Positions 7,431 to 22,892 of a DNA stretch of 44,560 nucleotides are shown here, one piece after another (the stretch's first letter is position 1; each line of letters opens with the position of its first letter). The stretch lies in the NCBI GenBank assembly GCA_031291075.1, contig JARLJS010000202.1:1-44560 (forward strand). Reading direction: 5' to 3'. Position numbers and translations under genes: made by a program. A model generated the notes under the pieces. It was given only the letters and a program-made list of their open reading frames with translations. It was not told the DNA's origin and ran no database searches. The DNA comes from Nevskia sp. Lineage in GTDB: Bacteria > Pseudomonadota > Gammaproteobacteria > Nevskiales > Nevskiaceae.

Positions 7431-7443
7431 GGACGCCTCCGGT

Positions 7444-8106
7444 TCACGGTTTGAGACGGCCGGTGCTGGCCCAGACGCAGACGTTGCTCGAGCCGCCGCT
7501 CGCCTGCGCCAAGTCCATCTCGAACACCACCGCGGTCAGGTTGCGTTGGCCAAAAGCGTCGTTCTTGTTGTTGAAGATCAGCTTTCCGGTCGGCGGCTGG
7601 CCCGGATCGCCGAGACTGGCCATGGTGGCAGTGAATCCGGCGAAATCGAAGAAAAATGGGTCGTCGCGGTAGCCGGCGTAGAACCTCAGGCCGTTCGGCG
7701 TAGTGTTGACCGTCTCGATCGGCCCCGCAACCAGGGTGGCGCCGGCGCCGGGCAGGTTTTCGAGTTGCACCCCGATCTGGCCGGAGGTGTTGGTGCCGAA
7801 ACGGATGTTGACGTCGGTTTCCGGCACGCCGTCGCAGTTGGTGTCGATGTGATAGCTGAGCAGCACCTTGGGGTCGTAACTGCCGGGCAGGAAATCGACA
7901 CGGGCGTTCGGCGCCTCGGCCCCGCAGATGTCGATCGCCCCGACCAGTTTGCCGTTGGAGCGGAACAGGAACACGTCGGTGATGTCGGCGGCGTGGTCGC
8001 CGGAGGGGCCTTTAGTGCCGGGCGCGTCGACATGGTCCGCTGCAAATATCGGGTTGGCGGCCAACGTCAACAGCCACGCCGGGACCATCGCGTGTTTCGC
8101 TTTCAT
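7444..8106 (-). CDS. DUF4331-family exported protein (N-terminal-half type)
   Basis: The 220-residue product has a signal peptide (MKAKHAMVPAWLLTLAANPIFA) and then ADHVDAPG...DHAADITDVFLFRS, the N-terminal signature of DUF4331 proteins, which begin with a His/Asp-rich segment after the signal. A second conserved stretch, TDVNIRFGTN, follows. Typical DUF4331 proteins are about twice this length; the missing half resembles the next gene downstream. The ATG at 8106 was chosen because it has AGGAGC 8 bases upstream and opens the signal peptide; the frame continues upstream to 8160 without one. It starts 56 bp after the stop of the large cytochrome gene, so readthrough from the redox operon is plausible. 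Confidence 0.75.
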   Translation of the reverse strand: MKAKHAMVPAWLLTLAANPIFAADHVDAPGTKGPSGDHAADITDVFLFRSNGKLVGAIDICGAEAPNARVDFLPGSYDPKVLLSYHIDTNCDGVPETDVNIRFGTNTSGQIGVQLENLPGAGATLVAGPIETVNTTPNGLRFYAGYRDDPFFFDFAGFTATMASLGDPGQPPTGKLIFNNKNDAFGQRNLTAVVFEMDLAQASGGSSNVCVWASTGRLKP

Positions 8107-8162
8107 GACACCGGGCTCCTTGCACGCAGCCGCAGCTTGCGCAAGCAGATCATTGACCACAG

Positions 8163-11100
8163 TTACTTGGGACGGCTACCCCCTTTTTGCGCCTCGCCGC
8201 GCGCGGTGTCCGCCGCGTCGCTGACGAACCAGGGCGTGCCGTCGGGGTTCATGTAGAGCTTGCGCATTTCCTCGACGTTGAACGGTCGCGAGCCGATGCG
8301 GCCGAAGATCGCCACCTGGCCGCCGCTCTCGTCGACCGCGCGGTCGCGGTCGAGGCCGCGCGACAGCGACAGCGCGGGCTCGGGCGTGCGGTAGTGGGCG
8401 ATGAGCTGCGGCTTCGGGTCCGGCGAGAAGCCATAGAACTTGGGCTGGCTGTCGGGCGAGGTGAGCTGCAGCACCCGCAGGCCGTCGGCGCCGTCGGCGA
8501 CGTAGGCGAACAGCGAGGCGTTGGTCGAGCCCACGATCACATCGCGCACGTCGTTGAGCTTGCCGTCGGCGTCGAACAGCTGGTACAGCCTGGGCTTCTC
8601 CGGATCCTGCACGTCGACGATCGCCAGACCCTGCTTGCCGGCGGCGACGTAGGCGAAGGTGCGCGCCACGTACACGCGGCGGGCGTCCTGCAACGGTATC
8701 AGGGCGCCGTCCACCAGCCTGGGCGTCTCCGGATGGGTGATGTCCACCACCTGCAGGCCGGCGCCGGTGACGGCGAAGAGGTAGCGGAACTGCACGTAGG
8801 TGGCGCGCAGGTCCTGGATCGGCAGCGTGGCGACGACCTGCGGCGACAGCGGGTCGGCCAGGTTGAGCACCACCAGGCCGGCATCGGCGGCGACATAAAC
8901 CCAGTCGCCGGCTACCGTCAGGTGGCGGGCGCCGCGCAGCAAGCCGGCCGGGTTGAAGGTGAGCGCGCGGGTCAGGAAGTTGTCGCGCGGCTCGCCGTTC
9001 TGCAGGGTGTCCACGTTGGTCAGGATCAGGCCTTCGGCGCGATCGGTGATGAGGGCGTAGTGGTAGATCGGGTGGAACGCCTGTTCCTTGTTCTCCTGCC
9101 GCATCTTCTCGGTATTGCGCAGCGGGTTCACCGGCTGGTTGGTGGGCAGCGCCACGCAGCTGGCATCCTCCGAGTCGATGTGGGTGTCGTGGCCGAGCGG
9201 CGAGAAGGGGGCGGTGATGATCTTCTCCGACACGCCCTTGTTGCCGATGCTGGCCACGTCGTAGGCCTGCATGCCGTGGCGGCCCTGCGCCACGTACAGG
9301 TACTCGCCGCGGAGCTGCAGGCAACCGACGGTATCGCCGGTGCCGTGGGTGTAGGCGTGCTGCAGTTCCTGGCCGTTTTTCTGATGGTCGGCGTACCAGT
9401 CGGGGTAGGCGTACTTGTGCAGGTAGCTGCCGATCACCGCCTGCGGCTCGTCCCATTCCGTCACCTGCACCGCGGCGATGGCGCCGTCGAGGCCGGTATA
9501 GGCGTGGTAACCGACGAAGTTGACGAAGCCGGTGCCCAGGCCCAGCAGCGAGGTCATCCAGGCATTGTTGTCATGCGTTTGTGACAGGTGGCAGTCGCTG
9601 CAGGTCTTGGTCTCGACGGTACGCTCGGTGTGCGGGTAGTGCGGCGCGAAAGCCTGGCTGGAGAAGCCGCTGGCCGCCACCGGCGGCTGCTGCACGTAAA
9701 TGTGCTCGCGGCTCGAGTTGGTCGAGGACAGGATCAGGGCCGAGGAGCTGCGTACCGGTGCGATGCGGAAGCCCTTGGCCTCACCGTGCTTGCCCAGCAT
9801 GAAGAAGTCGTCGCGCACCACCTGCGGGTTGTAGGTGGCGTAATTGCGCGTCTCGCCGCCCTCGAAGTGCTGGCGCTCGGTCTTCCAGTTGGCCTGGATC
9901 GGCAGGTGGCAGCCGAAGCAGGAGGTGGTCCAGGAACTGTGGCAGGTGACGCACAGCATCTTGCTGTCCTGGTGTGCGCGCTCCGCCGGCGTCACGCTCT
10001 GGCCCCATGCGAGGTTCTTCGTGTCCATGCTCATCAGCTTGGCGCGGGCGGCCTTGGGGTTGTAGTCCTTGCTGCCCGGCGTGACCGAGTCTTTCACCAG
10101 GTGCACGCGCCACTCCATGCCGGGGGTGACACCTGAGCGCTGCCACAGCTCGCCGTTGATCCACTCGAAGCGCAGGCGGCCGTCCTGGGTGCGCATCTCC
10201 GCCAGGTCGGTACCGCCCGGCGGGGCAGCGGTCTGGGTGCCGTCGGCATAGACGCAGACGTAGGTGGGCAGCGCCGGCGGCGGTACGTTCTTGACCTTGA
10301 TCGATGCGCCGGCCTGCAGGGTGGAGCCGGCGGGGCACTTCGGCGCCGGCGCGGCCGGGCCGGAGGTCCGCAGGGTAGGGTTGCGGTCGACGGTGCCGTG
10401 GCAGTCCTGGCAGTCGATTTCGATGGCCTGCGCCACCTCGCCGTACATGTGGCCATTGCCGTGCGCGTCCTGGGCGAAGTGGCAGTCGGCGCACTGCATG
10501 CCCTTTTCGATGTGGATCGACATGAGCTGCACCGCCTTGTGCGGGTTGTTCCTGTCGAATTTATGCGGGTCATCGTCGGCAACGATCTTGCCGTCCTTGT
10601 CGAGCAGGTCGCCCTTGCGGTCGCGCTTGAAGATGGCGCGGAAGTTCCAGCCGTGGCCGTGGTAGTCGGCGAACTGGGTGTCCTTCATCTGGTCGTTCAG
10701 CTCGGACACGTGCTTGAGGAACTCGGGGTCGGACCACTTGCCGCGGATCGCCGCCTCTTCCGGGTTGCGCTCGTTGATCTGGCGGATCTCGTGGTCGGTG
10801 GGATAGCGCTGCTTCTCCGGCCACATGCGCGGCGCGTCGGACTCGTAGTCCCACATGGTGTAGCCGAGCATGGAGTTGAGGAAGATGTTCGGCTGGTGCA
10901 TGTGGCAGACCATGCACTGCGCGGTGGGGATGGCGCGCGTGAAGGTGTGGTACAGCGGATGACCGGACTCGTTCTTCGGGATGGTCGGGTCGACGGTCTG
11001 GGTGGTGCCGTCGTTGCCGAACTTCGCGTAAGGCCCGGAATGCAGCGGGTCGCGGTTGTTGGCGTAGACGACGTGGCAGCTGGCGCAGCCGCTGGAGCGG

Positions 11101-12059
11101 TAGTCGCCGGGCTGCTCGTTGGTGCCCAGGAACCACATCAACGGGTCGTTGAGGCGGGTCTTGGTGATGTTGATCACCGGCACCGCGATACGACTGCCGG
11201 TGCCGGGACCGCGGTTGGACTGGCGGAAGTCGGGCCGGCCCGGCTCCTCCAGCTTCTGCAGCTCGCCGGTGGAGTCTGGCAGGCCGGTTTCCGGGAACAG
11301 GGTGGAGATGTTGCGGCCGCCGCGCTCGAACACGCGGAAGATGTCGGCGGGCGGCACCACCTCCCAGTTCGGCAGCGGGAACAGCTGCGCCAGCACGCCT
11401 TTGGCGGTCATGTTGGCGTCCGGCGCGGCGGTGGGGTCGGCAATCTTCGCCGCCACCCCCTCGCGGGTATAGGCCTCGCCGACGATATAACGCTTGAACG
11501 GCAGGATGCCGTTGTTATAGGACGCGCCGCCCAGCAGCATCGCATCAGTCGCCATCAGGCTGCGCTCGGCCGCCTCGATGATCGGCAGGTGACAGCTGCC
11601 GCAGGCCTCGCGCGCTACGCGGTAGTCGCTGGGGTTGACGAAGCGCACGAACTCGGGCGCCTCGCGGTTGAGCAAGGTGTAGCTGTCCTGCGGGTTGGCG
11701 CTGGACGGGTAGTGCCAGGCTTCGGGATAGCGCGGCTGCACGTGGGCCTGGTCCAGCGCTTCACGGTAGGCCGGCATATCGGGGCGCACGTCCGCCGTCA
11801 CGGAAATCGAGGCATTGCCGCCGTGGCAGTCGGTGCAGCCCAGCACCACCGCCGGGTTGGCGTGCATGCTGGCGTGGTCGGTATCGGTGTGGCAGCTGCG
11901 GCAGCCGGCGCTCTTGGCGTCGGCCTGCGCGGTTTCCTGGAAGCGCGGCGCCGACGGCGTGACGGCGTACTTGATGTCGCGCCGGGTTTCGCCTTCGCCC
12001 GCCTGGATGGCGCCGGCGAAGGCCAGGAGGATGGCGGCGGTGGCGAGAAGGCGGCGCAT
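8163..12059 (-). CDS. Exported decaheme c-type cytochrome with C-terminal LVIVD-type beta-propeller
   Basis: The 1298-residue protein has a signal peptide (MRRLLATAAILLAFAGAIQA). It carries ten CXXCH heme-binding motifs with first Cys at about residues 53, 75, 153, 325, 382, 523, 550, 703, 714 and 820. After residue ~880 the heme motifs stop and a propeller-like region begins, with repeats such as WVYVAADAGLVVLNLADP, LFAVTGAGLQVVDITHP and FAYVAAGKQGLAIVDVQDP, the LVIVD pattern. Heme insertion into CXXCH needs export, so the protein is periplasmic or at the cell surface; the propeller could bind a partner or substrate. The frame is open 54 bp further upstream, but the ATG at 12059 gives the signal peptide. 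A perfect 32-bp inverted repeat ends two bases before this start codon. The upstream barrel gene suggests an outer-membrane electron conduit. The electron acceptor or donor is unknown. Confidence 0.85.
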   Translation of the reverse strand: MRRLLATAAILLAFAGAIQAGEGETRRDIKYAVTPSAPRFQETAQADAKSAGCRSCHTDTDHASMHANPAVVLGCTDCHGGNASISVTADVRPDMPAYREALDQAHVQPRYPEAWHYPSSANPQDSYTLLNREAPEFVRFVNPSDYRVAREACGSCHLPIIEAAERSLMATDAMLLGGASYNNGILPFKRYIVGEAYTREGVAAKIADPTAAPDANMTAKGVLAQLFPLPNWEVVPPADIFRVFERGGRNISTLFPETGLPDSTGELQKLEEPGRPDFRQSNRGPGTGSRIAVPVINITKTRLNDPLMWFLGTNEQPGDYRSSGCASCHVVYANNRDPLHSGPYAKFGNDGTTQTVDPTIPKNESGHPLYHTFTRAIPTAQCMVCHMHQPNIFLNSMLGYTMWDYESDAPRMWPEKQRYPTDHEIRQINERNPEEAAIRGKWSDPEFLKHVSELNDQMKDTQFADYHGHGWNFRAIFKRDRKGDLLDKDGKIVADDDPHKFDRNNPHKAVQLMSIHIEKGMQCADCHFAQDAHGNGHMYGEVAQAIEIDCQDCHGTVDRNPTLRTSGPAAPAPKCPAGSTLQAGASIKVKNVPPPALPTYVCVYADGTQTAAPPGGTDLAEMRTQDGRLRFEWINGELWQRSGVTPGMEWRVHLVKDSVTPGSKDYNPKAARAKLMSMDTKNLAWGQSVTPAERAHQDSKMLCVTCHSSWTTSCFGCHLPIQANWKTERQHFEGGETRNYATYNPQVVRDDFFMLGKHGEAKGFRIAPVRSSSALILSSTNSSREHIYVQQPPVAASGFSSQAFAPHYPHTERTVETKTCSDCHLSQTHDNNAWMTSLLGLGTGFVNFVGYHAYTGLDGAIAAVQVTEWDEPQAVIGSYLHKYAYPDWYADHQKNGQELQHAYTHGTGDTVGCLQLRGEYLYVAQGRHGMQAYDVASIGNKGVSEKIITAPFSPLGHDTHIDSEDASCVALPTNQPVNPLRNTEKMRQENKEQAFHPIYHYALITDRAEGLILTNVDTLQNGEPRDNFLTRALTFNPAGLLRGARHLTVAGDWVYVAADAGLVVLNLADPLSPQVVATLPIQDLRATYVQFRYLFAVTGAGLQVVDITHPETPRLVDGALIPLQDARRVYVARTFAYVAAGKQGLAIVDVQDPEKPRLYQLFDADGKLNDVRDVIVGSTNASLFAYVADGADGLRVLQLTSPDSQPKFYGFSPDPKPQLIAHYRTPEPALSLSRGLDRDRAVDESGGQVAIFGRIGSRPFNVEEMRKLYMNPDGTPWFVSDAADTARGEAQKGGSRPK

Positions 12060-12060
12060 G

Positions 12061-12223
12061 TAGGGCTCGTCAGATGATGAATGATCCACGCGACGGGGGC
12101 GATTTTCGCGCATTGCGGCGTCTCTCCTCGCTCATGTACATGCAGTACACAGCGCTCCTCGCGCCTTGCCTGGGGCGCTCCTGGGCGACAACGCGTGGAT
12201 CATTCATCATCTGACGAGCCCTA
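12061..12223. repeat. Perfect 32-bp inverted repeat separated by 99 bp
   Basis: The arms 12061-12092 and 12192-12223 are exact reverse complements. The right arm contains the stop codon of the barrel gene (12221-12223). The left arm ends next to the start codon of the decaheme cytochrome, so in the mRNA one arm occupies the ribosome-binding region. The 99-bp interior has its own imperfect palindrome around CTCATGTAC and GTACACAGCG (about 12130-12160). It may be a MITE-like insertion, a transcription attenuator or a translation-controlling stem. Confidence 0.85.
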
Positions 12224-14401
12224 GTAGGTCAACAGGAGGTTGCCGAGCACGGAATAGTCGTACTGGTCCGGGAAGAGCTGGCGATAGCCCTCACCGGGGA
12301 TGAGCATGGCGCCGGACAGGCGGAAGATGATGTTCTGGGTGAAGAACGGCCGGTAGATCACCGCGGTGGACAGGTCCCAGCCGATATTGTTGGAGATGCC
12401 ACCCTGGTTGCGCGCGAACTGCAGCACCTGGGAGCTGTCGAACCAGAGATGGTTGAAGTTGCCCGACAGGCGCAGCTGCGGCAACAGGTCGGCGTCGGCG
12501 CCCAGGCCGACCAGGATGATGCCCGGGTTCTCGAAGTTGGACTGGCCGAAATCCTTGCTGGAGCGCAGGTCCGCGAGGAGGCCGTTGCGCTGCGACAGGG
12601 CCACGCCGCCGCCGCCGATGAGCGGGATCGCCTGGCGGATCCAGAAGCTGGTATCGGACCCTGCGATGAGCGGATTCTCGAAGATGGCGTCGAAGCCGCC
12701 GGCCGTGCCGTTGTAGGGGTTGTGGTCGCCGCTGGCGTACACCCCGCTCAGGCGCAGGCGCAGCCAGTCGATGTCGTAGGAGGCTTCGCCGGCGGCGAAC
12801 AGGCCGCGGATGCGCTTGGTGTTGTCGTTGAACACGCCGCGGTCCTGGTTGCCGGCCTCGAGGTAGGTCGACATGGTCAGGTTGAGGCGGCCGAAGTGGC
12901 CGTCGCCGTTGTAGCCGACGTAGGTGACGTGGTACTTGCGCGGCGACTCGGTGCCGAGGATGGCGGGCCGCTGCAGGAAACCGTTGTCGTCGTAGAACTG
13001 CGAGCCGTTCTCGCGGTTGCGGTTGTGCACCACCGTGAGCTGCGAGGTGAAGGCCAGCACCGGCCAGTCCTGGCGGTAGACGTTGGCGACGAAGATGTCG
13101 TCCTGGCGCGGCTGCACCGTCACGTCGTTGAGGCCGCTGTTGGTGTTCTTCTCCAGGCGGCGGATCCACGCCAGGTTGTACTGCCAGCGGTTGTTGTCGC
13201 GGTTGCCGAAGAAGCGCAGCGCGAGCTGGTTGTCCTGGAACAGGAAGCCGCGGAAGTCGGTGGAGAACGGCTGGATGCCGAAGCGCACGCTGTCGAAGTC
13301 GTAGCGGTCGGAGACGTTGCGGATGTGGTAGTCGACGAAGGCTTCCTGCAGGCCGATGAACTGGTCGGAGCGGTAGCGGCCCTTGCCCGGATCCACGTTC
13401 AGCACGCCGGCCTCTTCCGCCGTCGTGTAGTTGTAGTTCAGCACCGGCGTCAGGTGCAGCTCGTACTCCGGCGGCTTGAAGGTGGTGTCACCCTTGTAGT
13501 AGACCGCGGCGAGGATCAGGTTGCCGTTGAACAGGGTCTGCCGCGGGCCGCCGAAGATGTCGTTCTGGCCCGGGGTATTGGTGCCCTGGCCGCCGACCGG
13601 GGTGGGCAGGCGCCGGTACTCGTAGGTGGCGTCGGCGGTGACGTTGAGGTTGATGAATTCGTCGCCGTTGCGGATCGGCTTGTCGCCCTTGTAGGTATTC
13701 TGGTTGTAGGGGTCGTACCAGTGCTGCGGCACCAGGCCCAGCGTGTTGAGCAGGCGCCAGCGGTCCGGGATCGGCGCCTTCTCCCATTCCTTCCAGGCTT
13801 CCGGAGCCGCCACCGGCGCTAGGCGGCTGACCCGGTTGGGGTCCGGCAGAGGCTGGGTGTCCTCCGGCACGGTGCGCGGTGTTTCGCCGCTGATACGCCG
13901 CAGGTCGGGGGGCGGCTCGTCCGGCGCGGTCTCCGGTAACCCGTGCAGGGTTTCGGTCATCTTGTCGGCCCAGCTCACGCCCGCCGGCTGGGCCATCGCC
14001 ACGCTCTGGACGGGCGCCGCATGGGCCGGCGCGGCAGCCGGCATCGGTGCGGCCGCCGGGACGGCAGGCTTCTCGGCGACGGCACGGGGCGTCGCCGCGC
14101 CGCCGCTGTACACCGCATAGGCCTCGGCGGCCGGAATGGCGAGGATCTCCTGCGCCGTCGGCACGCGCAGCACGCTGCCCGGCTTGATGTGCTCAGGCGA
14201 ACCGGCGAAGGCGCCGGGGTTGGCGCGGTACAGGGCGGCGATGGTCTGGTAGGTGCACAGCCGGGTCTGTTCCGGGCGCAGGGAGTAGGCGATCTGCGAC
14301 AGGCTCTCGCTGGCGCGCACCGGGCCGTAGTTCTGGCTGCCGGCCTGTGCGCTGAGCGCGCAGAGGGCGCCCAGCGCGACGCGCACGGACAGGTGTTTCA
14401 C
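12221..14401 (-). CDS. Outer-membrane beta-barrel protein with FimV/LysM-like N-terminal domain
   Basis: The ~726-residue protein has a signal peptide (MKHLSVRVALGALCALSAQA). A FimV-type LysM-like domain follows (YGPVRASESLSQIAYSLRP, IAALYRANPGAF, IKPGSVLRVPTAQEI), which suggests peptidoglycan contact. After a Pro/Ala-rich linker of ~100 residues, residues ~230-726 alternate polar and hydrophobic residues in many amphipathic strands rich in Tyr, Phe, Trp and Asn, and end in LLLTY, an aromatic C-terminus typical of BAM substrates. The barrel resembles DUF1302/porin-type proteins, but I do not recognise a named family. The GTG at 14401 overlaps the preceding TGA (GTGA); ATG 14413, four codons earlier, is an alternative. 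Lying directly before the exported decaheme cytochrome, it is a good candidate for the pore of a porin-cytochrome conduit; that role is inferred. Confidence 0.75.
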   Translation of the reverse strand: MKHLSVRVALGALCALSAQAGSQNYGPVRASESLSQIAYSLRPEQTRLCTYQTIAALYRANPGAFAGSPEHIKPGSVLRVPTAQEILAIPAAEAYAVYSGGAATPRAVAEKPAVPAAAPMPAAAPAHAAPVQSVAMAQPAGVSWADKMTETLHGLPETAPDEPPPDLRRISGETPRTVPEDTQPLPDPNRVSRLAPVAAPEAWKEWEKAPIPDRWRLLNTLGLVPQHWYDPYNQNTYKGDKPIRNGDEFINLNVTADATYEYRRLPTPVGGQGTNTPGQNDIFGGPRQTLFNGNLILAAVYYKGDTTFKPPEYELHLTPVLNYNYTTAEEAGVLNVDPGKGRYRSDQFIGLQEAFVDYHIRNVSDRYDFDSVRFGIQPFSTDFRGFLFQDNQLALRFFGNRDNNRWQYNLAWIRRLEKNTNSGLNDVTVQPRQDDIFVANVYRQDWPVLAFTSQLTVVHNRNRENGSQFYDDNGFLQRPAILGTESPRKYHVTYVGYNGDGHFGRLNLTMSTYLEAGNQDRGVFNDNTKRIRGLFAAGEASYDIDWLRLRLSGVYASGDHNPYNGTAGGFDAIFENPLIAGSDTSFWIRQAIPLIGGGGVALSQRNGLLADLRSSKDFGQSNFENPGIILVGLGADADLLPQLRLSGNFNHLWFDSSQVLQFARNQGGISNNIGWDLSTAVIYRPFFTQNIIFRLSGAMLIPGEGYRQLFPDQYDYSVLGNLLLTY

Positions 14402-16335
14402 TTGCCGTCGCATGGGTTCTGCTCGCTGCTGTTGAGGAACGGAGCCTGCGGGCACTCGACGTAGCGCAGCTTCTGCCCCTGGATGTTGAGCTGGTCGATG
14501 CGCATGGCCGCCGGCGCGTTGCCGATGGTGCCGAGCACCTGGCCGGCGTTGTACAGGCCCAGGAAGGTCACCATGTCGTCCTGGTCGATGCCGTCGCCCG
14601 ACACGCCGACGCCGCCGACCAGGGTGTTGCCGCGATAGATCGGCACGCCGCCGGCGAAGATCTGCAGGCCGTCGCCCAGGGCGGCCGGGACGGTGGTGTT
14701 GAAGCCGGCACCCGCCGGCGGACCGGCGCAGCTGGGGCCGTTGTCGGGCCCGGCGCCGAGTACGAACAGCACATGCTGTGCGATGCGCTCATAGTCGAAA
14801 TCGAGCTGCAGCCCGGTGGAGAACGGGCTCCATTGCGGGTAGGGCTTGCTCAGGGGGCCGTTGGGGTTGCCGTCGATGCCGTCCGGAAAGAAGGGGCGCT
14901 CCAGGTTGCCGACCGAACGCGCGCCGTAGGCGTAGCTGCCGTTGAGCGCGTTGACGCCGATCAGTGCGGTCATCGCCTGGGCGTAGCCGCTGAACTGGAC
15001 CGTGCTGGTACCGGCGCTGCCCTGCGGTTTGAGGTAAGTGACCGAGCCGCCCGCCTGCAGCGCCGCCCCCGCGCCGGGCGAGGAGAAGAACATCGCGGTG
15101 CGCGCCTTCTGCAGGGCGACGTCGGTACCGAACACCGGCGCGTCGCGGGTGCGCAGCACGCCAAGGATGGTGCCGAGCGTGTCGACCACCACCACCGAGC
15201 CGCGCATCGGGGTACTGAGTGGCTGGCGGATCTGCGCGCGGGTGCTGTTGGCGACAGCGATGCCGTCCTTGAGCAGCTCGGTAACCTCGGCGGCGCTGAG
15301 CAGGCCGTCCTTGCCGGCGGTGGGCGGATAGCGCGGAGTGCTGTCGGCATTCACCAGCCGGAACGCATCGAGTCCGGCAAAGGCCGCCTCGGTGGCGGGC
15401 GCGTAGCCGGACTGCGCCTGCGCGAAATAGGTGCCGGTGACGATGGAGGCGGCGCTGTAGCCGGGGACGGCGAGGAGCGAGCCGCTACCGCTGGCGGCGG
15501 CGTAGCTCAGGGTATTGCGGCCGCCGGTGGCGGTGTCGCCGACCCCCACATCGCTGTAACGCAACGTCACGCCGCCGACGGTGATGACGTCGGCGCGGCG
15601 GTTGCCCGGCGCGTCGAAACCCGAGGTTGCGGCAATGGCGATCAGTTCGTCCACACCGCGGTCGCGGTCGTCGACATTCAGGTCCAGGCTGTACTGGCCG
15701 TCGGCGATGACGCCGACGCCGCCCACCACCGTGCCGCCCTTGTACAGCGGGAAGCCGCCGGGATCGGCCGACAGTCCCAGCGGCGAGCGCTTGGGGCCGA
15801 TGTCGGCGGCGCCACCAGCGTAGCGGGTGTTGAAATCGGAGCAGGGCAGCGAACTGAACTGCACGCCGAACAACGGTCCGCCGGGCTGCCCGAGGTCGCC
15901 CGGGTTGAAATGCTCCTGCACGATCTGGCTGGCGGTGCGGGTGGAGAAGGCGTTGCCCTCGGAGCTGAGGTAGGCGCCGGTGATCGCCTTGGCGATCGCT
16001 CCCATCGTCGCTGGTACGACCGCGAGGCCATCCAGGCCGGTGCCGGTGTTGCGCTGCGAGTTGACGGTGACCGTGGTGCCCGCGTTCTTCATCTGGAACA
16101 CGGCGAGCACGTTGCCGGAACGATCCACCACCGCGATGGTGGCGCCGATGTTCTGCGCCTGCGCCTCGGCCACCGCCTGGGCGATCACCTGCTGTACCTC
16201 GGCCACCTCCAGCCGCTGCGGCGAGTTCGTCTGGCAGTAGCCGGTGCAGCCGTCGCCGCCGGGGGCGCCGCCACCGCCGCCGCCGCAGGAGGCGACACCG
16301 AGGCACAACGTCAGCAGCGCAAGGTGGCCCCTCAT
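14398..16335 (-). CDS. Lipoprotein with two GlcG/HbpS-like (DUF336) domains
   Basis: The 645-residue protein has a lipoprotein signal ending VASC (Cys17), then a Gly-rich linker. Two regions resemble the GlcG/HbpS (DUF336) fold. The first, residues ~40-260, contains IAQAVAEAQAQNIGATIAVVDRSGNVLAVFQM and ends LYKGGTVVGGVGVIADG. The second, ~370-640, contains VVVVDTLGTILGVLRTRDAP and ends IYRGNTLVGGVGVSGDG. HbpS proteins bind heme or related cofactors; GlcG's role is not settled. Large insertions separate the conserved parts. Its ATG overlaps the TGA of the FHA-cytochrome gene (ATGA) and its end overlaps the barrel gene, so translation is coupled on both sides. Between two multiheme cytochromes it could handle or sense heme in the periplasm; that is inference. 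Confidence 0.78.
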   Translation of the reverse strand: MRGHLALLTLCLGVASCGGGGGGAPGGDGCTGYCQTNSPQRLEVAEVQQVIAQAVAEAQAQNIGATIAVVDRSGNVLAVFQMKNAGTTVTVNSQRNTGTGLDGLAVVPATMGAIAKAITGAYLSSEGNAFSTRTASQIVQEHFNPGDLGQPGGPLFGVQFSSLPCSDFNTRYAGGAADIGPKRSPLGLSADPGGFPLYKGGTVVGGVGVIADGQYSLDLNVDDRDRGVDELIAIAATSGFDAPGNRRADVITVGGVTLRYSDVGVGDTATGGRNTLSYAAASGSGSLLAVPGYSAASIVTGTYFAQAQSGYAPATEAAFAGLDAFRLVNADSTPRYPPTAGKDGLLSAAEVTELLKDGIAVANSTRAQIRQPLSTPMRGSVVVVDTLGTILGVLRTRDAPVFGTDVALQKARTAMFFSSPGAGAALQAGGSVTYLKPQGSAGTSTVQFSGYAQAMTALIGVNALNGSYAYGARSVGNLERPFFPDGIDGNPNGPLSKPYPQWSPFSTGLQLDFDYERIAQHVLFVLGAGPDNGPSCAGPPAGAGFNTTVPAALGDGLQIFAGGVPIYRGNTLVGGVGVSGDGIDQDDMVTFLGLYNAGQVLGTIGNAPAAMRIDQLNIQGQKLRYVECPQAPFLNSSEQNPCDGK

Positions 16336-18083
16336 GGCTTGTGCTCCGTCGTGGCCGTGGTCGCGGATACCGTCTTGATCGGCGCTCCCATCTGTTGTTC
16401 CCTGGCAACGTGGTAACCGTGGCACTCCAGGCAGTTCGACTGGATCCTGGCGCTGCTGCCGGGGTCGCCGTGGCAGTCGCGGCAGCGCTTGAGGTCCGGC
16501 AGCAGGACGTCGGTGCTCAGCTTGGACGTGGTGGCGGCGTGGCAGCTCTCGCACTTCTCGGTGCGGTGCTCGGCGTGACTGAACGTCGCCTGCTCGAGCC
16601 GGTGGCGCCCAAGCGTCACCGGTTCGATGCTCCACGGCAGGGCCGGGTCCCCGGTGCGTTGCACCGTGTGGCAATAGCCGCAGACGCGCTTGTCGAACAC
16701 CTCGTCCTCGACGATGGCGGACTGCCGGTCGGCCCACTCCAGCGCGGCCCGCGCCTGCGGCGGGCTCAGCTGCTCGCCCGGCTTGCGCCGCAGCTGCACG
16801 ATCTCCGGCGCGCCCGGCTTGTGGACGCCGCCGGTCAGCGCCGCGCGGGCGTAGAAGTCGCGGATCACGCCCGCCACCTGCGTCGGCTGTGCATGCGGTA
16901 GCAGCCGGTCGGGCTCATCCGGATCGAAGTCCAGGCGGTGGCATTCGGCGCAGTGCTGCGGCATGTCGATGGGCTTGAACGAGATGCCCGAGGCATCCGG
17001 CTGGTGGCAGTCGCCGCAGACCAGCACCTTGGTGCCATGCGGGGACTTGATGCCCTTCGGGTTGAGGTGCTTGTCGTGCGGATACTTCAGGTTGGTATCC
17101 GAATGGAGGGTGGCGGGCTGGTCCTGGCTCGCCTCCATCCAGCGGAACTGACGGGAGGCCGGGTCGTAGCGCGCCACTTTTGGCGTGAACACGGGATGCT
17201 TTTGCGAGAAGCTGGTGGCCGGCGGCATCTTGCTGTCGGCAAAGCGCAGCTGCGGCTGGGCGTGGCAGTCCGTGCATTGCAGGTTGGCTTGCGACACCAG
17301 CGCCGCGTCGCCCTTGTGCTCGTGGTGGCAGTCCTCGCAGCGCGCCTGGGCGAACACCGGCATCTGCAGCAGGTGCGGGTCGTCCACGTGCTGCGCGGTA
17401 TCCTTGTGGCAGCTCAGGCAGGCCTCGTTGCGCACCCGCACGAACGGCACCTCATGACATTTGGCGCAATCGTTGCTGAAGAACGAATGGAAGCTGCTGA
17501 AGTGGCCGGGCACCCAGATGCGGTCGGTCGGTTTCCATGCCGGGGCCTGGGGCGGCGGGGTGTAATCCGCCGCCGGAGCCGCCGCCCGGCTTGGCGGACC
17601 CTGGTAGCGCAGGTAGGCCGGGATCGCCAGTCCCGGCAGCAGTACCAGGAAGAACAACAGCCAGGCCAGGCGCCGGCGCGACAGGCCGGCCTCGTCCAGG
17701 GACATGCTCAGGCGGGTGTGGCGCTGGCTCTTTTCGTCGCGCGCCGAGATCGTCTCCTCGACCTCGACCTGCAGGTCGGCGCCGTCCTTGCCCGGGCTGA
17801 TCACCAGCCGGAAGCGGCCGAGTATGACGGTGTCGCCGCCGTGCAGCTTGTGCTCGGTCACCGGCGCGCCGTTGATCAGCATCATGTCGCCGGAGCGGGA
17901 CACGATGACGGCGTTCTTGCCGCTGCGCACCAGCTCGGCGTGGGCAATGGCGACGCGCAGGTCCGGCAGCTGGATGTCCTGGTCGGTGCCGCGGCCGATG
18001 CGCAGGTGCTCGGTGTCGAGCATGCGGTCGCGGGGGACGCGTTCGCCGCCTTGGCGGGCCCAGGTGCGGATCAGGAAGCGCAC
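16332..18083 (-). CDS. FHA-domain, single-pass membrane decaheme cytochrome c
   Basis: The 583-residue protein starts at GTG 18083, 7 bp after the preceding stop. Residues ~15-100 form a forkhead-associated domain (IGRGTDQDIQLPD with Gly30-Arg31, AHAEL with His48, NG at 71-72), a fold that normally binds phosphothreonine peptides. The usual Ser before the RxHA-type His is Ala here, so phosphopeptide binding may be altered. One hydrophobic helix spans ~138-158. The remainder has ten CXXCH motifs (first Cys at about 206, 222, 249, 270, 356, 378, 468, 511, 534, 551). The topology should be FHA in the cytoplasm and hemes in the periplasm. The FHA-cytochrome join is unusual and could couple a phosphorylation signal to electron transfer. 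The start is likely but lacks a clear Shine-Dalgarno. Confidence 0.85.
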   Translation of the reverse strand: MRFLIRTWARQGGERVPRDRMLDTEHLRIGRGTDQDIQLPDLRVAIAHAELVRSGKNAVIVSRSGDMMLINGAPVTEHKLHGGDTVILGRFRLVISPGKDGADLQVEVEETISARDEKSQRHTRLSMSLDEAGLSRRRLAWLLFFLVLLPGLAIPAYLRYQGPPSRAAAPAADYTPPPQAPAWKPTDRIWVPGHFSSFHSFFSNDCAKCHEVPFVRVRNEACLSCHKDTAQHVDDPHLLQMPVFAQARCEDCHHEHKGDAALVSQANLQCTDCHAQPQLRFADSKMPPATSFSQKHPVFTPKVARYDPASRQFRWMEASQDQPATLHSDTNLKYPHDKHLNPKGIKSPHGTKVLVCGDCHQPDASGISFKPIDMPQHCAECHRLDFDPDEPDRLLPHAQPTQVAGVIRDFYARAALTGGVHKPGAPEIVQLRRKPGEQLSPPQARAALEWADRQSAIVEDEVFDKRVCGYCHTVQRTGDPALPWSIEPVTLGRHRLEQATFSHAEHRTEKCESCHAATTSKLSTDVLLPDLKRCRDCHGDPGSSARIQSNCLECHGYHVAREQQMGAPIKTVSATTATTEHKP

Positions 18084-18090
18084 GGCGCGG

Positions 18091-19065
18091 CTACCAGTAG
18101 AGGAACACGGACAGGATGTGCGCCGTCAGCGCGGCCAGCAGGCCGAAGGTGAGGGGCACATGGATGAACAGCCAGACCTGCATGCGCGCGTGCAGCTGAA
18201 TGTCGCGGTTGATGCGCGCCGTAAGGTCGCGCCGCCGCGCGATCAGGTCCAGCAGCTTCTGCACGTTCTCGCTGTCGTGCGTGCCGCCGGCCAGCTGCGA
18301 GGCCATGAACATCACGGTGGACTGCATGTCCGGCTCGTTCTTGAGCTTGGGCGCCTTGCGCTCGGGACGGATCTGGGTGGCCATGAAGCTGGTCGTCTCG
18401 CTCAGCTCCTTGCTGATGCGATCGAAGGACTTGCGCTCCGGTTCGCGCGGGCCGAACAGCAGCGCGCGCAGACCGCCGCCGATGCGGACGCGGTCCACCG
18501 AACGCACCACCACCTGGTGCACCTGCGGATCGAGGGCGTCCGCCAGCTTGAGCGACTGGTCGTTGATCTCGTCGATCTCCGACAGCCAGACCTCGCGGGT
18601 GCCCTGGCCCCGGTTGGCGGTGATCAGCTCGGGGTAGCGGGCGTAGGCGACGATGCCGTAAATGCCGCTGAGGATGACCCCCAGCATCAGCGCATAGGCC
18701 AGGGTGTGCACGTTCCAGCCGAAGTGGAAGCCGGTGTGCAGGGTGGCGATGGTGATCAGCGCCAGGCCGAGATAGACGTGGGCGGACGCCCAGCCGCGCA
18801 CGGTGCCGAGGTTGGAGGTGTAGCGCCGCTTGCGCCAGCCGAGGAAGGTGAGCCAGACGATCAGCAGGGCGCCGATGGTGCCGAGCGCGTAGCCCAGCCA
18901 GGTGCCGCCGTTGGGGCCTTCCGGCGGGCTGTGCCAGCAGTAGGCGACGATCGCCGCGACGCACAGCAGCGTCGCCAGCTTGAAATAGCGGAAGCCGGCA
19001 TGGACCAGGAAGCCCTCGTGGGTGGCCGCTGCCGCGGCCGGCGCCCCGCTGCTGTCTGCGGCCAT
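18091..19065 (-). CDS. Five-helix membrane b-type cytochrome, probably diheme
   Basis: The 324-residue protein has hydrophobic segments at ~25-44, 55-77, 93-117, 120-142 and 295-321, with a long hydrophilic loop (~145-290) between the fourth and fifth. Helix three carries His96 and His110, and helix five carries His302 and His316. The 14-residue spacing in both helices is the classic pattern for two bis-His b hemes spanning a membrane. This suits a quinone/quinol or Fe-S protein partner passing electrons across the inner membrane. ATG 19065 starts 2 bp after the stop of the FAD/Fe-S gene and the gene ends 7 bp before the FHA-cytochrome, so the three form one transcript. No exact family name was recognised; succinate-dehydrogenase- or cytochrome b561-like membrane anchors are the closest comparison. 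Confidence 0.75.
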   Translation of the reverse strand: MAADSSGAPAAAAATHEGFLVHAGFRYFKLATLLCVAAIVAYCWHSPPEGPNGGTWLGYALGTIGALLIVWLTFLGWRKRRYTSNLGTVRGWASAHVYLGLALITIATLHTGFHFGWNVHTLAYALMLGVILSGIYGIVAYARYPELITANRGQGTREVWLSEIDEINDQSLKLADALDPQVHQVVVRSVDRVRIGGGLRALLFGPREPERKSFDRISKELSETTSFMATQIRPERKAPKLKNEPDMQSTVMFMASQLAGGTHDSENVQKLLDLIARRRDLTARINRDIQLHARMQVWLFIHVPLTFGLLAALTAHILSVFLYW

Positions 19066-19067
19066 CC

Positions 19068-21473
19068 TCAATCCCTCCGCGCCACGCGCAGGAACTGTTC
19101 GGGGCTGACGCGCCGCGCGGCGCCGGTGGGGCAGGCGCGGACGCAGGCCGGGCCCCCGGCCTGGCCCTTGCACATGTCGCACTTGGCGGCGCGCTTGGGC
19201 ATGCCGTCATGGTGATGGTGGTGGTCCTCCGCCGCGCCCGGCTCGCGGCCGCCGAACAGCATCCAGCGCCACAGGCTCGGCTTGGCCTTGCTCTCGATGC
19301 CCATCTGGATCACGCCGTAGGGGCAGTTGCGCTGGCAGTTGCCGCAGCCGATGCAGGAGTCGCTGATGTAGACCTCGCCGTTGGGGGAGCGCTTGATCGC
19401 GTCCGGCGGGCAGTCCTTCATGCAGTGCGGGTGCTCGCAATGGCGGCAGGACGTCGGCACGTGGATGTTTTCGTAGGTCGGGCCGGCGGCGCGGTTCAGG
19501 CGCGACAGGCCGCCATGGGTGCTGGCGCAGGCCTTCTCGCACTGGTCGCAGCGCACGCACAGCGACTCGTCGATGAGCAGCACATCGGTGGCCTCGCCCA
19601 CGCCCTGCGACATGAGGAAGCCGATCACGCCGCCACGCTCGGGCTGCTGCAGGGCGGCAACGTTGCGTGCCAGGCGCGACTTGTAGCGTTCCTCCACGCG
19701 GGCCTTGACCTGCGGCATGCGGGCCAGCAGATCCTTGAAGGCAGCGCCGTCGATGCGGATGGTTTCCGCCGCCACCGCCGCGATGGCGGTGCCGGAGCGG
19801 GGCAGGTTGCTGACCAGGGCCATCTCGCCGACGTACTGGCCGGCCGGCACGTAGGCCAGCACCACGTCGCGGCCTTCCATGTGGCGGGAGATCGTGACCG
19901 AGCCGCGGCGGATCAGGTGCAGGCAATCGCCGGCATCGCCTTCGCGGAACAGCGTCTCGCCCGGCTTGAAGCTCATGACCGAGGCGCTGGCCACCAGCTG
20001 GGCCACGGTCTCCGGCGGGGCTTCCGGGGCGATATTGGCGAGGATGGCACGGCGCAGGAAGGCCTCGTCGACCACGCGCTTGACCGCCGGCACCGAGTAG
20101 ATGAGCTTGTTCATCGACCGGCGCGGCGTCTCCACCAGCACGCAGCTCCGGCCGGCGCGGGTGGTGGCGGAACGGCGGCGGCCCGAGATCAGGCTCATCT
20201 CGCCGAAGAACTCACCGGCGCCGAGACTGACCGTGCTGGTATGCCCTTCGGCGCCCGGCAGCTCGATCTCCACCTGCCCGTCGACGATGGAATAGAAGCT
20301 GTCGCTGTAGTCGTTGCGCTCGAAGATCACCTCGCCGGGCGACGGCGTGCGCACGTCGGAGTCGAGCAGGAACTCGCGCAGCTGCAGGCGCGTCAGCGGC
20401 GCCAGCACGGGCACCCGCTGCTGCACCAGATCCAGCGCGGCGTCGACGCTGGTGAAACCGGGCATGTTGCCGAACTTCTTGCGCAGCAGCGGCTCGTCGG
20501 CGGGCTCGAGCTTGTTGCCCTGGATGAACTCGATGACCTCGTAGCCCTGGTTCATCGCCTGCTTGATCAGCGGGAAGCCGGCCAGGGCGCCGATGATGTA
20601 GAGGCCCGGCACGTTCGACTCGTAGGTGCCGGAGACCGCCGGCAGGCTGGTCGGGTCCGGGGTGGGGAACACCACCCCGCAGGACTCCACGAACTTGCGC
20701 GGCGGGGTGGCGCCGAGGCGGGCGATGATGCGGTCGCAGGGCACCTGCACCTCGCCGGAGGCGGTATTGAGCACCAGCACCCCGCGCGGCTGTTTGTCCG
20801 GCTGCGGCTCGGCGCGGCGTGGCGCGCTGTTGTAGAAGCACTGCACGCGGCCGTCGGCGATGGCCTTGAGGATGGCGGCGTTGTTGGCGCCCTTGGCGCG
20901 GTCGAACTCGTCGCGGCGGTTGACGATGATGACCTTGTTGCGGTCGGACAGGGCGATGGCGTTCTCGATCGCCGCGTCGCCGGCGCCCACCACGATGATG
21001 GTCTCCTCGGCGTACTCGTCCGGGTCGTCGAGCTGGTACTGCACGAACTGCTCGTCCTCGCCGGGGCAGCCGAGCTTGCGGATGTTGCCCTGCAGGCCGA
21101 TCGCCATGACCACGAACTCGGCGGTTACCGCGCCGCCGTCAGCCAGCTTGAGCGTGAAGGCGCCGCGCGAACCGCTGACCCCGGTGACCTCGGCGCGGTG
21201 GCGCACGTTGGTCTTGTGGCCGGCGCACTCCTTGTTCCAGGTGTCGAGGATTTGCTCGCGCTTGCCGGCGGCGAAGGACACCGGGCTGCGCAAAGGCAAT
21301 ATCGACGGCTCCGCCATCACGTATTTACCCTTCTGATAGCGGTAAATCGTGTTGGAAAGGTGATCCTCGGCCTCCAGCAGCACGTGCGAAAGGCCAAGTT
21401 CGGCCGCGTGGGCAGCGGCGGACAAGCCGGCAGGCCCCGAGCCAATCACGGCAATTTTATACTGGTCTCCCAT
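19068..21473 (-). CDS. Flavin reductase with two cNMP-binding domains and a four-cluster ferredoxin tail
   Basis: The 801-residue product is cytoplasmic (no signal). Residues 5-320 form a two-dinucleotide-binding flavoprotein: IGSGPAGLSAA (residues 10-20) for FAD and VVGAGDAAIENA (161-172) for NAD(P)H. It resembles YpdA/ferredoxin-NADP reductase-type proteins and lacks the CxxC of thioredoxin reductase. Residues ~365-475 and ~485-600 are two cyclic-nucleotide-binding domains, with phosphate-cassette segments FGEMSLISGRRRSATTRA and VGEMALVSNLPRSGTAIA. The C-terminal ~160 residues hold 16 Cys in four groups (639-649, 676-688, 707-717, 765-781), enough for four [4Fe-4S] clusters as in DmsB/NrfC-type subunits, plus a five-His run at 751-755. 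It is the first gene of the redox operon and may pass NAD(P)H electrons to the b-type cytochrome under cNMP control; direction is inferred. An in-frame TTG at 21482 is an alternative start. Confidence 0.85.
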   Translation of the reverse strand: MGDQYKIAVIGSGPAGLSAAAHAAELGLSHVLLEAEDHLSNTIYRYQKGKYVMAEPSILPLRSPVSFAAGKREQILDTWNKECAGHKTNVRHRAEVTGVSGSRGAFTLKLADGGAVTAEFVVMAIGLQGNIRKLGCPGEDEQFVQYQLDDPDEYAEETIIVVGAGDAAIENAIALSDRNKVIIVNRRDEFDRAKGANNAAILKAIADGRVQCFYNSAPRRAEPQPDKQPRGVLVLNTASGEVQVPCDRIIARLGATPPRKFVESCGVVFPTPDPTSLPAVSGTYESNVPGLYIIGALAGFPLIKQAMNQGYEVIEFIQGNKLEPADEPLLRKKFGNMPGFTSVDAALDLVQQRVPVLAPLTRLQLREFLLDSDVRTPSPGEVIFERNDYSDSFYSIVDGQVEIELPGAEGHTSTVSLGAGEFFGEMSLISGRRRSATTRAGRSCVLVETPRRSMNKLIYSVPAVKRVVDEAFLRRAILANIAPEAPPETVAQLVASASVMSFKPGETLFREGDAGDCLHLIRRGSVTISRHMEGRDVVLAYVPAGQYVGEMALVSNLPRSGTAIAAVAAETIRIDGAAFKDLLARMPQVKARVEERYKSRLARNVAALQQPERGGVIGFLMSQGVGEATDVLLIDESLCVRCDQCEKACASTHGGLSRLNRAAGPTYENIHVPTSCRHCEHPHCMKDCPPDAIKRSPNGEVYISDSCIGCGNCQRNCPYGVIQMGIESKAKPSLWRWMLFGGREPGAAEDHHHHHDGMPKRAAKCDMCKGQAGGPACVRACPTGAARRVSPEQFLRVARRD

Positions 21474-21572
21474 ACCCCCCAAAAGCGTGGTTTGACCGCG
21501 GCGGCCGCGTGAGTACTATGCTCAACTTAGCAAAGCGATTCAACGGGGCACAGCACGCGTATGGGGGGTATG
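21471..21572. repeat. Mirror-image GGGGGGTATG start-region repeat of divergent genes
   Basis: The sequence GGGGGGTATG occurs at 21563-21572 on the plus strand and as its exact complement at 21471-21480. Each copy covers the translation-start region of one of the two divergent redox genes, and both proteins can begin Met-Gly-Gly-Met depending on the start used. The symmetry could be an operator, a shared translation signal or chance. Confidence 0.6.
21492..21519 (+). promoter_or_regulatory. Sigma-70 promoter for the pentaheme cytochrome gene
   Basis: TTGACC (21492-21497) and TACTAT (21514-21519) are separated by 16 bp and lie about 42 bases before ATG 21561. Both hexamers match the sigma-70 consensus in five of six positions or nearly so. 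It is the only region that can drive this gene, as the neighbour is divergent. No comparably good promoter was seen on the minus strand for the redox operon. Confidence 0.6.
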
Positions 21573-22892
21573 CGTAAGACAATCGTGCGTCTAGTGGCCG
21601 TGGTGCTGCTGCCCTGGGCTGCGGCCGGTTCTGCCGCGGACGCGGGCAAGCACCTCGGTGTGGCCAGCTGCGCCGGCAGCACCTGCCATGGCTCGACGCG
21701 CCCGTTCACCGACAGTCGCATCCGCCAGGACGAGTATTTCACCTGGCAGCGCAAGGACGCCCATACCCGTGCATACGACACCCTGCTGTCCGAGCGCTCG
21801 CAGGAAATCGCGCACAAGCTCGCTCTGAAGGATGCCGCCAACGCGCCGCGCTGCCTGGTCTGCCACGCCGAGAATGCGCCCCAGGCGCAGCGCGGCGAGC
21901 GCTACATGGTGACCGACGGCATCGGCTGCGAGGCCTGCCATGGTGGCTCCGAGCACTGGATCCGCGAGCACACCGCCGGCTATAAGACGCTGGCGGACCG
22001 CAGCGCGGCCGGCCTGTACCCGACCTGGGATCCCATCGCCCGTGCCAGGCTGTGCTCCGGCTGCCACGTCGGCGACAACGACCATCCGATGAGCCACGCG
22101 ATCATGGCGGCCGGCCACCCGCCGATCCTGTTCGAGCTCGACACTTTCGAGGTGCTGGAGCCGCCGCACTGGCGCGTGGATGCCGGCTATGTCGAGCGCA
22201 AGGGACCGCAGGATCCGGCGCGTAACTGGGCCGCCGGGCAGGTCGAGGGCGCGCGTGCGGTACTGGAGAACCTGGCCGGGCCGCGTTTCCATGGGGGCGC
22301 CTTCCCGGAGTTGGCGTTCTTCGACTGCAACGCCTGCCACCATTCGCTGATCAAGGGTGGCCGGGCCCGGCCGCAGCGCAGCGGCGGCCTGCCGGACGGC
22401 TCGGTGCCGCTGGCCGACTCGCAACTGGTGATGCTGATCCGCTGGCTGGACGTGGTCGAGCCGGCGGCCGGACGCAAGTGGCACGACCAGTGGGTGGCCC
22501 TGCAGGCGGCCAGCCAGCGCAGCAGCGGCGAGGTGCAATCCCAGGCGCGGAACATGCTTGTCACCCTGGATTCCGTTCTGGTGCCGAAGGTGCGCGCCAC
22601 TACCCTGGACGACGCCCAGCTGCGGAGCCTGCTGAAGAGCATTGTGGCCGAGGCGCGCGGCAGCCACGCCGGCGATTTCAGCAACGCCGAGCAGACGGCG
22701 ATGGCCGTGTCGGTGCTGACCACCGCGCTGTCCGAGCGCGGTGCCGAGCAGGTGTCCGACGGCCTGCGCAAGGCGGTGGACGGCCTCTACGCGCAGGTGA
22801 TGGATCGCGACCGCTTTCAGCCGGACAGCTATCGCGGCTCGGTCGAAAAGGTCGCAGTGGCCCTCGGACTGGCGCGGGGCGCGGCCGACTGA
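21561..22892 (+). CDS. Exported pentaheme cytochrome c (cytochrome c554-like)
   Basis: The 443-residue protein has a signal peptide (MRKTIVRLVAVVLLPWAAAG, then SAADA, from the second Met). It carries four CXXCH motifs (CLVCH, CEACH, CSGCH, CNACH; first Cys about 98, 123, 165 and 256) and, near the mature N-terminus, CAGSTCH, a longer CX4CH. It resembles multiheme cytochrome c554-type domains, with conserved RIRQDEYFTW, AHTRAY and DGIGCEACHGG stretches. The last ~160 residues are helical without hemes. ATG 21561 is used; ATG 21570 is an alternative. The gene is divergent from the redox operon and shares its upstream region, so it probably works in the same electron chain in the periplasm. Redox partner unknown. 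Confidence 0.82.
   Translation: MGGMRKTIVRLVAVVLLPWAAAGSAADAGKHLGVASCAGSTCHGSTRPFTDSRIRQDEYFTWQRKDAHTRAYDTLLSERSQEIAHKLALKDAANAPRCLVCHAENAPQAQRGERYMVTDGIGCEACHGGSEHWIREHTAGYKTLADRSAAGLYPTWDPIARARLCSGCHVGDNDHPMSHAIMAAGHPPILFELDTFEVLEPPHWRVDAGYVERKGPQDPARNWAAGQVEGARAVLENLAGPRFHGGAFPELAFFDCNACHHSLIKGGRARPQRSGGLPDGSVPLADSQLVMLIRWLDVVEPAAGRKWHDQWVALQAASQRSSGEVQSQARNMLVTLDSVLVPKVRATTLDDAQLRSLLKSIVAEARGSHAGDFSNAEQTAMAVSVLTTALSERGAEQVSDGLRKAVDGLYAQVMDRDRFQPDSYRGSVEKVAVALGLARGAAD

Follow-up and report, generated by a model that had tools for sequence, protein, structure and literature searches.

A widely conserved candidate porin-cytochrome conduit with a predicted NAD(P)H-type, cyclic-nucleotide-binding entry protein in Nevskia sp.

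A run of genes on contig JARLJS010000202.1 of Nevskia sp. (assembly GCA_031291075.1) raises the question of whether electrons from NAD(P)H may be carried across the whole cell envelope, and whether a cyclic nucleotide may switch their entry. The stretch analyzed, hereafter the window, comprises 44,560 nucleotides, and positions 8163 to 22892 hold six minus-strand genes, called here F, E, D, C, B, and A in order of transcription, and a divergent gene, G. We consider it fairly probable that these genes encode a trans-envelope porin-cytochrome electron conduit, likely running outward from NAD(P)H, with a cyclic nucleotide most likely switching the entry of electrons. The data at hand are the composition of the cluster, the conservation of its motifs, the linkage of its genes, its relation to published porin-cytochrome clusters of the PCC4 type, a predicted barrel, and the nearness of cyclase and phosphodiesterase genes in relatives.

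The first gene, F (19068..21473, minus strand), encodes a predicted NAD(P)H:FAD oxidoreductase of the TrxR/YpdA type, in which Pfam and NCBIfam recognized Pyr_redox, two stretches of cNMP_binding (cyclic nucleotide-binding), and several Fer4 matches, and in which four [4Fe-4S] sites are conserved. Its sequence relatives in the PDB include PKA regulatory subunits, which also have tandem cNMP domains, HycB-type ferredoxins, and thioredoxin reductases and YpdA. The flavin part contains no CXXC motif, as is also the case in TrxR-like ferredoxin-NADP reductases. F was also matched by PF13247 (33.8 bits, cut-off 26.2) and lies directly upstream of E (18091..19065, minus strand), which encodes a membrane cytochrome b predicted to be diheme from two WX3HX13H motifs and one SGXXG motif; no Pfam family matched E, and a profile search against the PDB gave nothing better than an E-value of 0.27. 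D (16332..18083, minus strand) combines a cytoplasmic forkhead-associated (FHA) domain, one transmembrane helix identified by eye, and a predicted periplasmic decaheme cytochrome c with ten CXXCH motifs and cytochrome c3/c7 matches. C (14398..16335, minus strand) is a predicted lipoprotein with two HbpS-like stretches (a double HbpS/GlcG domain) and a lipobox, GVASC, read by eye. A (8163..12113, minus strand) is a predicted secreted decaheme cytochrome with ten CXXCH motifs, LVIVD (propeller) repeats, and a cytochrome c7 match, and G (21561..22892, plus strand), beyond which lies gyrA (named from its sequence), is a pentaheme cytochrome of the c554 family with four CXXCH motifs and one CX4CH motif. 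F and E are separated by 2 nucleotides and E and D by 7, D/C and C/B overlap, and the gap between B and A is 107–161 nucleotides depending on the start chosen for A, which is probably the ATG at 12059, after which a signal peptide was recognized by eye. All seven genes are located as described in the initial annotation of the locus, made from the sequence alone, and that observation is confirmed.

The remaining gene of the run, B (12221..14413, minus strand), matched no Pfam family and nothing in PHROGs, and neither A nor B gave a match when its profile was searched against the PDB. The AlphaFold2 model of B (mean pLDDT, the predicted local distance difference test, 80.2; predicted template modeling score, pTM, 0.70) is that of an outer-membrane beta-barrel with approximately 18 strands, counted by eye, at residues 242–729, preceded by a small N-terminal domain and a disordered linker. 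The N-terminus is FimV/LysM-like (FimV_core, 48.7 bits, cut-off 43.45). Of 101 B proteins, only 13, counting that of the window, have a domain recognizably resembling it; thus, the predicted barrel agrees with the initial annotation, but the peptidoglycan contact proposed with it does not appear to be a general feature of B proteins.

Is this arrangement peculiar to the window? Of 100 genomes searched, the window's own among them, 29 besides the latter contained D (E below 1e-60), and the order F-E-D-C-B-A was kept in 21 of the 29 loci fetched in this way. The eight others comprised two loci cut by contig ends (L029 and L043; L and G are our labels for loci and genomes), two without C (L017, L031), two with permuted genes (L035, L040), and two in which F-E-D was paired with a different outer module (L020, L030). 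Relatives of A were present in at least 586 loci in a scan of named genome contigs (tblastn, E 1e-3). In the best 80 of these, seven of which are shared with the 29 D relatives, the same order was found in 40 and the permutation E-D-C-B-A-G-F in 11, four carried C-B-A and D-E-F on opposite strands, and many of the others were permuted or ended by the contig. When at least 9.5 kb was available on both sides (37 named loci), B and C were present in 37/37, D, E, and F in 36/37, and G in 24/37. The hosts span records titled Alpha-, Beta-, and Gammaproteobacteria with several gene permutations, and the named hosts of A relatives include Stagnimonas, Steroidobacter, Limnobacter, Parahaliea, and Pseudoteredinibacter strains. 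In phylum samples, 11 of 398 genomes contained A and 16 of 396 contained E, the window's genome being counted in both. D was also sought in 13 genomes, namely those of 10 of the 17 named loci that lacked it, together with L124, G223, and G492, and was found in 12, including 10 of the 11 (the 10 named loci and G492) in which it had not been seen with A; in G310, G445, and G492, A and D were both kept, far apart or on separate contigs. The homologues are therefore not scattered without order, and chance co-location was rejected, as gene set and order are kept across loci.

Motif conservation was analyzed in sets from which frames with internal stops were excluded and in which seven genomes are present twice. 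Each of the ten heme motifs was kept in 107/107 sequences of A and in 91/91 of D, where two sequences carry one of them as CX4CH. The 16 cluster cysteines of F were kept in 92–93 of 94 sequences, with gaps elsewhere, and the four motif histidines of E in 87/87, the residues of SGXXG being S in 85, G in 87, and G in 87 of these. Since the heme motifs of A and D, the cysteines of F, and the histidines of E are kept in all or nearly all aligned sequences, such conservation is far from chance. In G, the first heme motif has the unusual form CX4CH and was kept in all 76 sequences with letters at that position; one CX4CH was found in 76 of 80 G sequences, and the PCC4-type relatives of G in L157 and L159 carry CXXCH in its place. 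Overall, we judge the porin-cytochrome system to be genuine, conserved in many bacteria, and linked to NAD(P)H, with a proposed link to second messengers in addition.

Part of this system is already known. He et al. (2017) described the putative porin-cytochrome conduits (PCCs) PCC3 and PCC4. They located a WX3HX13H motif on transmembrane helices 3 and 5 and SGXXG on helix 4 of the inner-membrane proteins, and noted in these proteins the two-heme pattern of ferric reductases and NADPH oxidases (NOX) (PMC5566968). The PCC4 protein has five transmembrane helices, subgroup II has a pfam13247 Fe-S gene upstream, and the multiheme cytochromes (MHCs) of PCC4 have 4, 5, and 10 hemes (PMC5566968). Like PCC4, the window has the inner-membrane signature (two WX3HX13H and SGXXG, in E), a pfam13247 Fe-S gene, F, upstream of E, a decaheme, a c554-type cytochrome, which is tetraheme in PCC4, and a porin. 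Among the relatives, five loci (L157–L161) were matched to the published PCC4 by composition, with a pentaheme, a barrel, an FNR-like protein, a tetraheme, an Fe-S protein, an E-like protein, and a decaheme; L157 begins inside the barrel gene. According to Pfam, the FNR-like protein of L157 consists of NAD_binding_1 and Fer2 (2Fe-2S) and stands beside a cNMP/Fe-S protein. Of the Fe-S proteins scanned, those of L157 and L159, both contain cNMP and PF13247 and one (L159) also FHA, so that the window shares cNMP domains and FHA with these loci. The initial annotation had stated that known conduits are devoid of such domains in their carriers; to our knowledge, this may hold for Mtr, Pio, and Cyc2, but it fails for the two PCC4-type proteins scanned. 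The words "FHA" and "cyclic nucleotide" are absent from the main text of He et al. (PMC5566968).

F, E, and G share approximately 18–25% identity with their PCC4-type counterparts, with cofactor motifs kept apart from the last motif of G, and D is homologous to the PCC4-type decaheme (hhalign 99.4%, E 3.7e-21). In contrast, B showed no relation to six barrels of the composition-matched loci (hhalign probability 0.5%), and A against the PCC4-type pentaheme scored only 51% (E 1.5e-4) over 72 columns around the heme motifs, a distant link being conceivable. The window further differs from PCC4 in its heme numbers (10 in A, 10 in D, and 5 in G), in the absence of a 5-heme protein of approximately 600 amino acids, in whose place stands the large LVIVD decaheme, in the added HbpS lipoprotein, in the fusion of the FAD/NAD(P)H module to the cNMP/Fe-S protein, and in an FHA domain carried by the decaheme. 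Because it lacks both the three MHCs of 4, 5, and 10 hemes and a barrel detectably related to those of the composition-matched loci, we regard the window cluster, on sequence grounds, as a sister variant of the putative PCC4 clusters and not as PCC4 itself. L020 (823-10487) and L030 (5570-15157) are hybrid clusters in which a window-type F-E-D is combined with a PCC4-like barrel and 5-heme and 4-heme proteins, a G-like gene being present, and in L156 (9297-12888) an E-like protein precedes two multiheme proteins, the first of them with 21 hemes, as in PCC3. PCC3 has the same inner-membrane signature but is distinguished from the window by MHCs that are very rich in heme and by a porin for which as many as 42 strands are predicted (PMC5566968). 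In our reading, one inner-membrane module may thus be associated with at least three kinds of outer partner.

Other known systems were also considered. The combination of a barrel and a decaheme across the outer membrane recalls MtrCAB, MtoAB, and PioAB, but no MtrB/PioB-family barrel or MtrA/DmsE-family decaheme was matched in Pfam or NCBIfam, and this identity was rejected, as was the Ext cluster (ExtHIJKLMNOPQS), A scoring 75.7 bits against the ExtM equivalog for a cut-off of 800. Eleven PCCs (group 1) from Sterkfontein ghost-rock metagenomes have a decaheme gene of 4–5 kb beside a porin of approximately 20 strands, with a ferredoxin-NADP+ reductase gene nearby in 7 of the 11 (PMC13264449). 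The window, with the 3.95 kb decaheme gene A, a predicted barrel of approximately 18 strands, and F, fits this description and probably represents the same system; the main text of that 2026 paper is without the words "cyclic nucleotide", "FHA", or "forkhead" (PMC13264449). A 10-heme forkhead-associated protein (cluster 403) is listed in Table 1 of a study of Gallionellaceae iron oxidizers, where it occurs in 27 of 87 (PMC10734462); D likewise has an FHA domain and ten heme motifs, a combination that is therefore already in print. Many unnamed MHC clusters are also reported with MHCscan (PMC11475568). The conduit is thus partly known already, through its relation to PCC4-type clusters and the matching ghost-rock group of decaheme, porin, and reductase. 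What appears new is the NAD(P)H-linked input and the finding that, in relatives, the conduit has neighboring genes for cyclases, a CpdA/SpdA-like phosphodiesterase, and PP2C/FHA proteins; in the open-access literature searched, no account of cNMP or FHA control of such a conduit was found among the matches listed.

How might the proteins work together? We infer that they form a complex, together with the order of its carriers, the direction and acceptor of the electrons, nucleotide binding, and switching. F would oxidize NAD(P)H and pass electrons through FAD and four [4Fe-4S] clusters to E, whose two b hemes would carry them across the inner membrane, as in NOX and ferric reductases. E would deliver them to D, the decaheme anchored in the inner membrane, and D to A, with G as a likely periplasmic relay. 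A would be held by, or located at, the barrel B in the outer membrane, and the complex would include C as a lipoprotein at the cell surface or in the periplasm. The direction is likely outward, from NAD(P)H to an extracellular acceptor, and a cyclic nucleotide bound to the tandem cNMP domains of F would most likely switch electron entry. In the Mtr system, the input is the quinol oxidase CymA. In L157, NAD(P)H coupling seems to be kept although the protein differs, because another NAD-binding protein accompanies the same inner module, which favors the direction from NAD(P)H to the outside.

The control of such a conduit, as proposed in the initial annotation, was examined through both of its suggested sensors. 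In F, the Gly, Glu, and Arg of the phosphate-binding cassette were kept in 93, 92, and 93 (domain 1) and in 92, 80, and 90 (domain 2) of 94 sequences, and it is plausible that both cassettes are able to bind a nucleotide and that cNMP controls the conduit. The FHA domain of D fared differently. The position of the phosphate-contacting serine, which we take from known FHA structures, is Ser in 7, Ala in 44, and a gap in 10 of 91 sequences; this residue of canonical phosphothreonine binding being mostly lost, FHA gating is a weak proposal and we make no claim that phosphopeptides gate D.

The gene neighborhoods of relatives lend support to the cNMP part. A class III cyclase was located within 10 kb of the cluster in at least 10 of 25 relatives (expected 1.40, P 3.5e-7), in at least 5 of 12 when only the first genome per genus was kept (expected 0.71, P 3.3e-4), and, again within 10 kb, in 6 genomes of a further set of 10 (expected 0.22, P 1.6e-8). 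These P values are optimistic, since 6 genomes of the further set come from a single family (f63) and the null model, random placement, is a simple one. The set of 25 consisted of the window's genome and 24 of the 29 D relatives, the five others (G003, G007, G036, G055, and G089) being excluded for short contigs or the lack of A; distances in both sets were entered by hand. In the cyclase sampling, G464 and G492 were also left out, and G501, G504, and G505 (L111, L064, L079), which had been picked for a nearby cyclase, were dropped from the further set. A CpdA/SpdA-like phosphodiesterase, assigned with scores below curated cut-offs, was sought in 14 genomes: 12 had one close match, G464 a weak, distant one, and G472 none. 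In 11 of the 12 with a close match, this gene either adjoined D or lay in the interval from D to A; in the twelfth, G507, it was found with A and a cyclase while D was on another contig. Four of the 14 genomes (L111, L122, L091, L118) were chosen because the gene had already been seen there; among the ten not preselected, which are the other A-carrying genomes of the phylum sample, exactly one close match was found in eight, beside D or between D and A in all eight. Of 107 loci, 13 have a PP2C gene adjoining G or close to it and 4 a kinase gene, which in two of them (L078, L097) lies some kilobases off; a separate FHA protein is encoded at 11 of 103 loci. In 12 genomes checked for PP2C, eight of which were chosen for a PP2C beside G, the gene near G was the sole PP2C_2 match in G018, G499, and G500; three of the other four genomes had no PP2C_2 match and G042 had two, neither near.

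From these neighborhoods we put forward, tentatively and as a somewhat doubtful proposal, a direct post-translational switch, in which a local cyclase and the CpdA/SpdA-like phosphodiesterase would determine the level of cAMP or cGMP and the tandem cNMP domains of F would accordingly admit electrons from NAD(P)H to the heme chain or shut them out, with PP2C, FHA, and kinase proteins as a second layer in some lineages. It is quite possible, if short of an even chance, that the cNMP and FHA domains are instead structural leftovers and that the nearby cyclase, phosphodiesterase, and PP2C genes reflect transcriptional or unrelated signaling; the loss of the FHA serine is in line with this, as are signaling neighbors that were not found around the window and are missing at many loci. 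A leftover would not be expected, however, to keep Gly-Glu and Arg in both cassettes of most of the 94 F sequences, and the phosphodiesterase gene adjoins D in G310, G445, and G492 despite the distance of A, although it goes with A in G507.

Several observations weigh against an outward conduit switched by a cyclic nucleotide, besides the optimism of the P values given above. Among the matches listed, 15 of the 25 relatives had no cyclase within 10 kb, and none was near the cluster in G223, G445, or G502, cyclase and cluster being on separate contigs in the last. The window itself gave no match to a cyclase, phosphodiesterase, PP2C, kinase, or separate FHA protein, and the window's genome has ten cyclase matches, of which the eight listed are all on other contigs. 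E was found without a listed A match in six genomes of the phylum sample (G100, G131, G139, G228, G249, G250), and F-E-D occurs without a recognized porin nearby in L153 and L155. Finally, electrons run the other way in the proposal of He et al., in which the inner partner is quinone (PMC5566968).

That direction would make A and B oxidize an extracellular donor, such as Fe(II), Mn(II), a cathode, or reduced organics, and send electrons through E and F to quinone or NAD(P)+. Both PCC3 and PCC4, drawn inward by He et al., occur in Fe(II) oxidizers (PMC5566968), and the 10-heme forkhead-associated protein cited above comes from 27 of 87 Gallionellaceae iron oxidizers (PMC10734462). We nevertheless find an inward conduit unlikely, as flavin modules of the NAD(P)H type are present both in F and in its PCC4-type counterpart in L157, electron transfer from such donors to NAD(P)+ is strongly uphill while no energy-coupling subunit was recognized in the gene set, and the named hosts include genera known as aerobic heterotrophs. 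More improbable still is a role of A as the terminal reductase or oxidase of one particular compound, e.g., an oxyanion, with B as anchor or uptake channel, in detoxification or assimilation: part of A does resemble ExtM of a selenite/tellurite operon, the HbpS domains of C come from heme- or redox-related families, and the number of residues per heme is far higher in A than in wire-like cytochromes, but the ExtM match is far under its cut-off, with a best stretch of 51 residues around heme motifs, and no reductase marker was recognized among the 25 commonest flank families, a weak point since only six were scanned with Pfam.

Some further features of these loci were recorded. In L153 (3052-8146) and L155 (6850-12656), F and E are fused into one gene of approximately 1120 codons, followed by a D with nine CXXCH motifs, perhaps a stand-alone inner module. 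A protein of approximately 150 amino acids with a signal-like start is encoded just before C in 12 of 103 loci (L054, L057, L067, L068, L071, L073, L085, L094, L102, L110, L114, L117), and the L110 copy had no Pfam match. Downstream of A, positions 3165-8160 of the window (minus strand) encode two DUF4331 proteins, a TPR protein, and a HupE/UreJ_2 protein; a DUF4331 gene was found in 7 of 103 loci, every one from the window's family. L086 and L089 are metagenome-assembled genomes titled Bordetella parapertussis, whose isolate names point to environmental samples, and these titles are probably wrong.

If the outward, nucleotide-switched conduit proposed here is correct, outer-membrane electron export would be common in proteobacteria hitherto not credited with it, and would be driven directly by NAD(P)H, not by quinol, and coupled to second-messenger signaling. 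The PCC4-type clusters and the window variant would then be unified as one inner-membrane module with interchangeable outer-membrane parts, and the roles of multiheme conduits in such bacteria could be studied in hosts that can be cultured, among them strains of Stagnimonas, Steroidobacter, Limnobacter, Parahaliea, and Pseudoteredinibacter.

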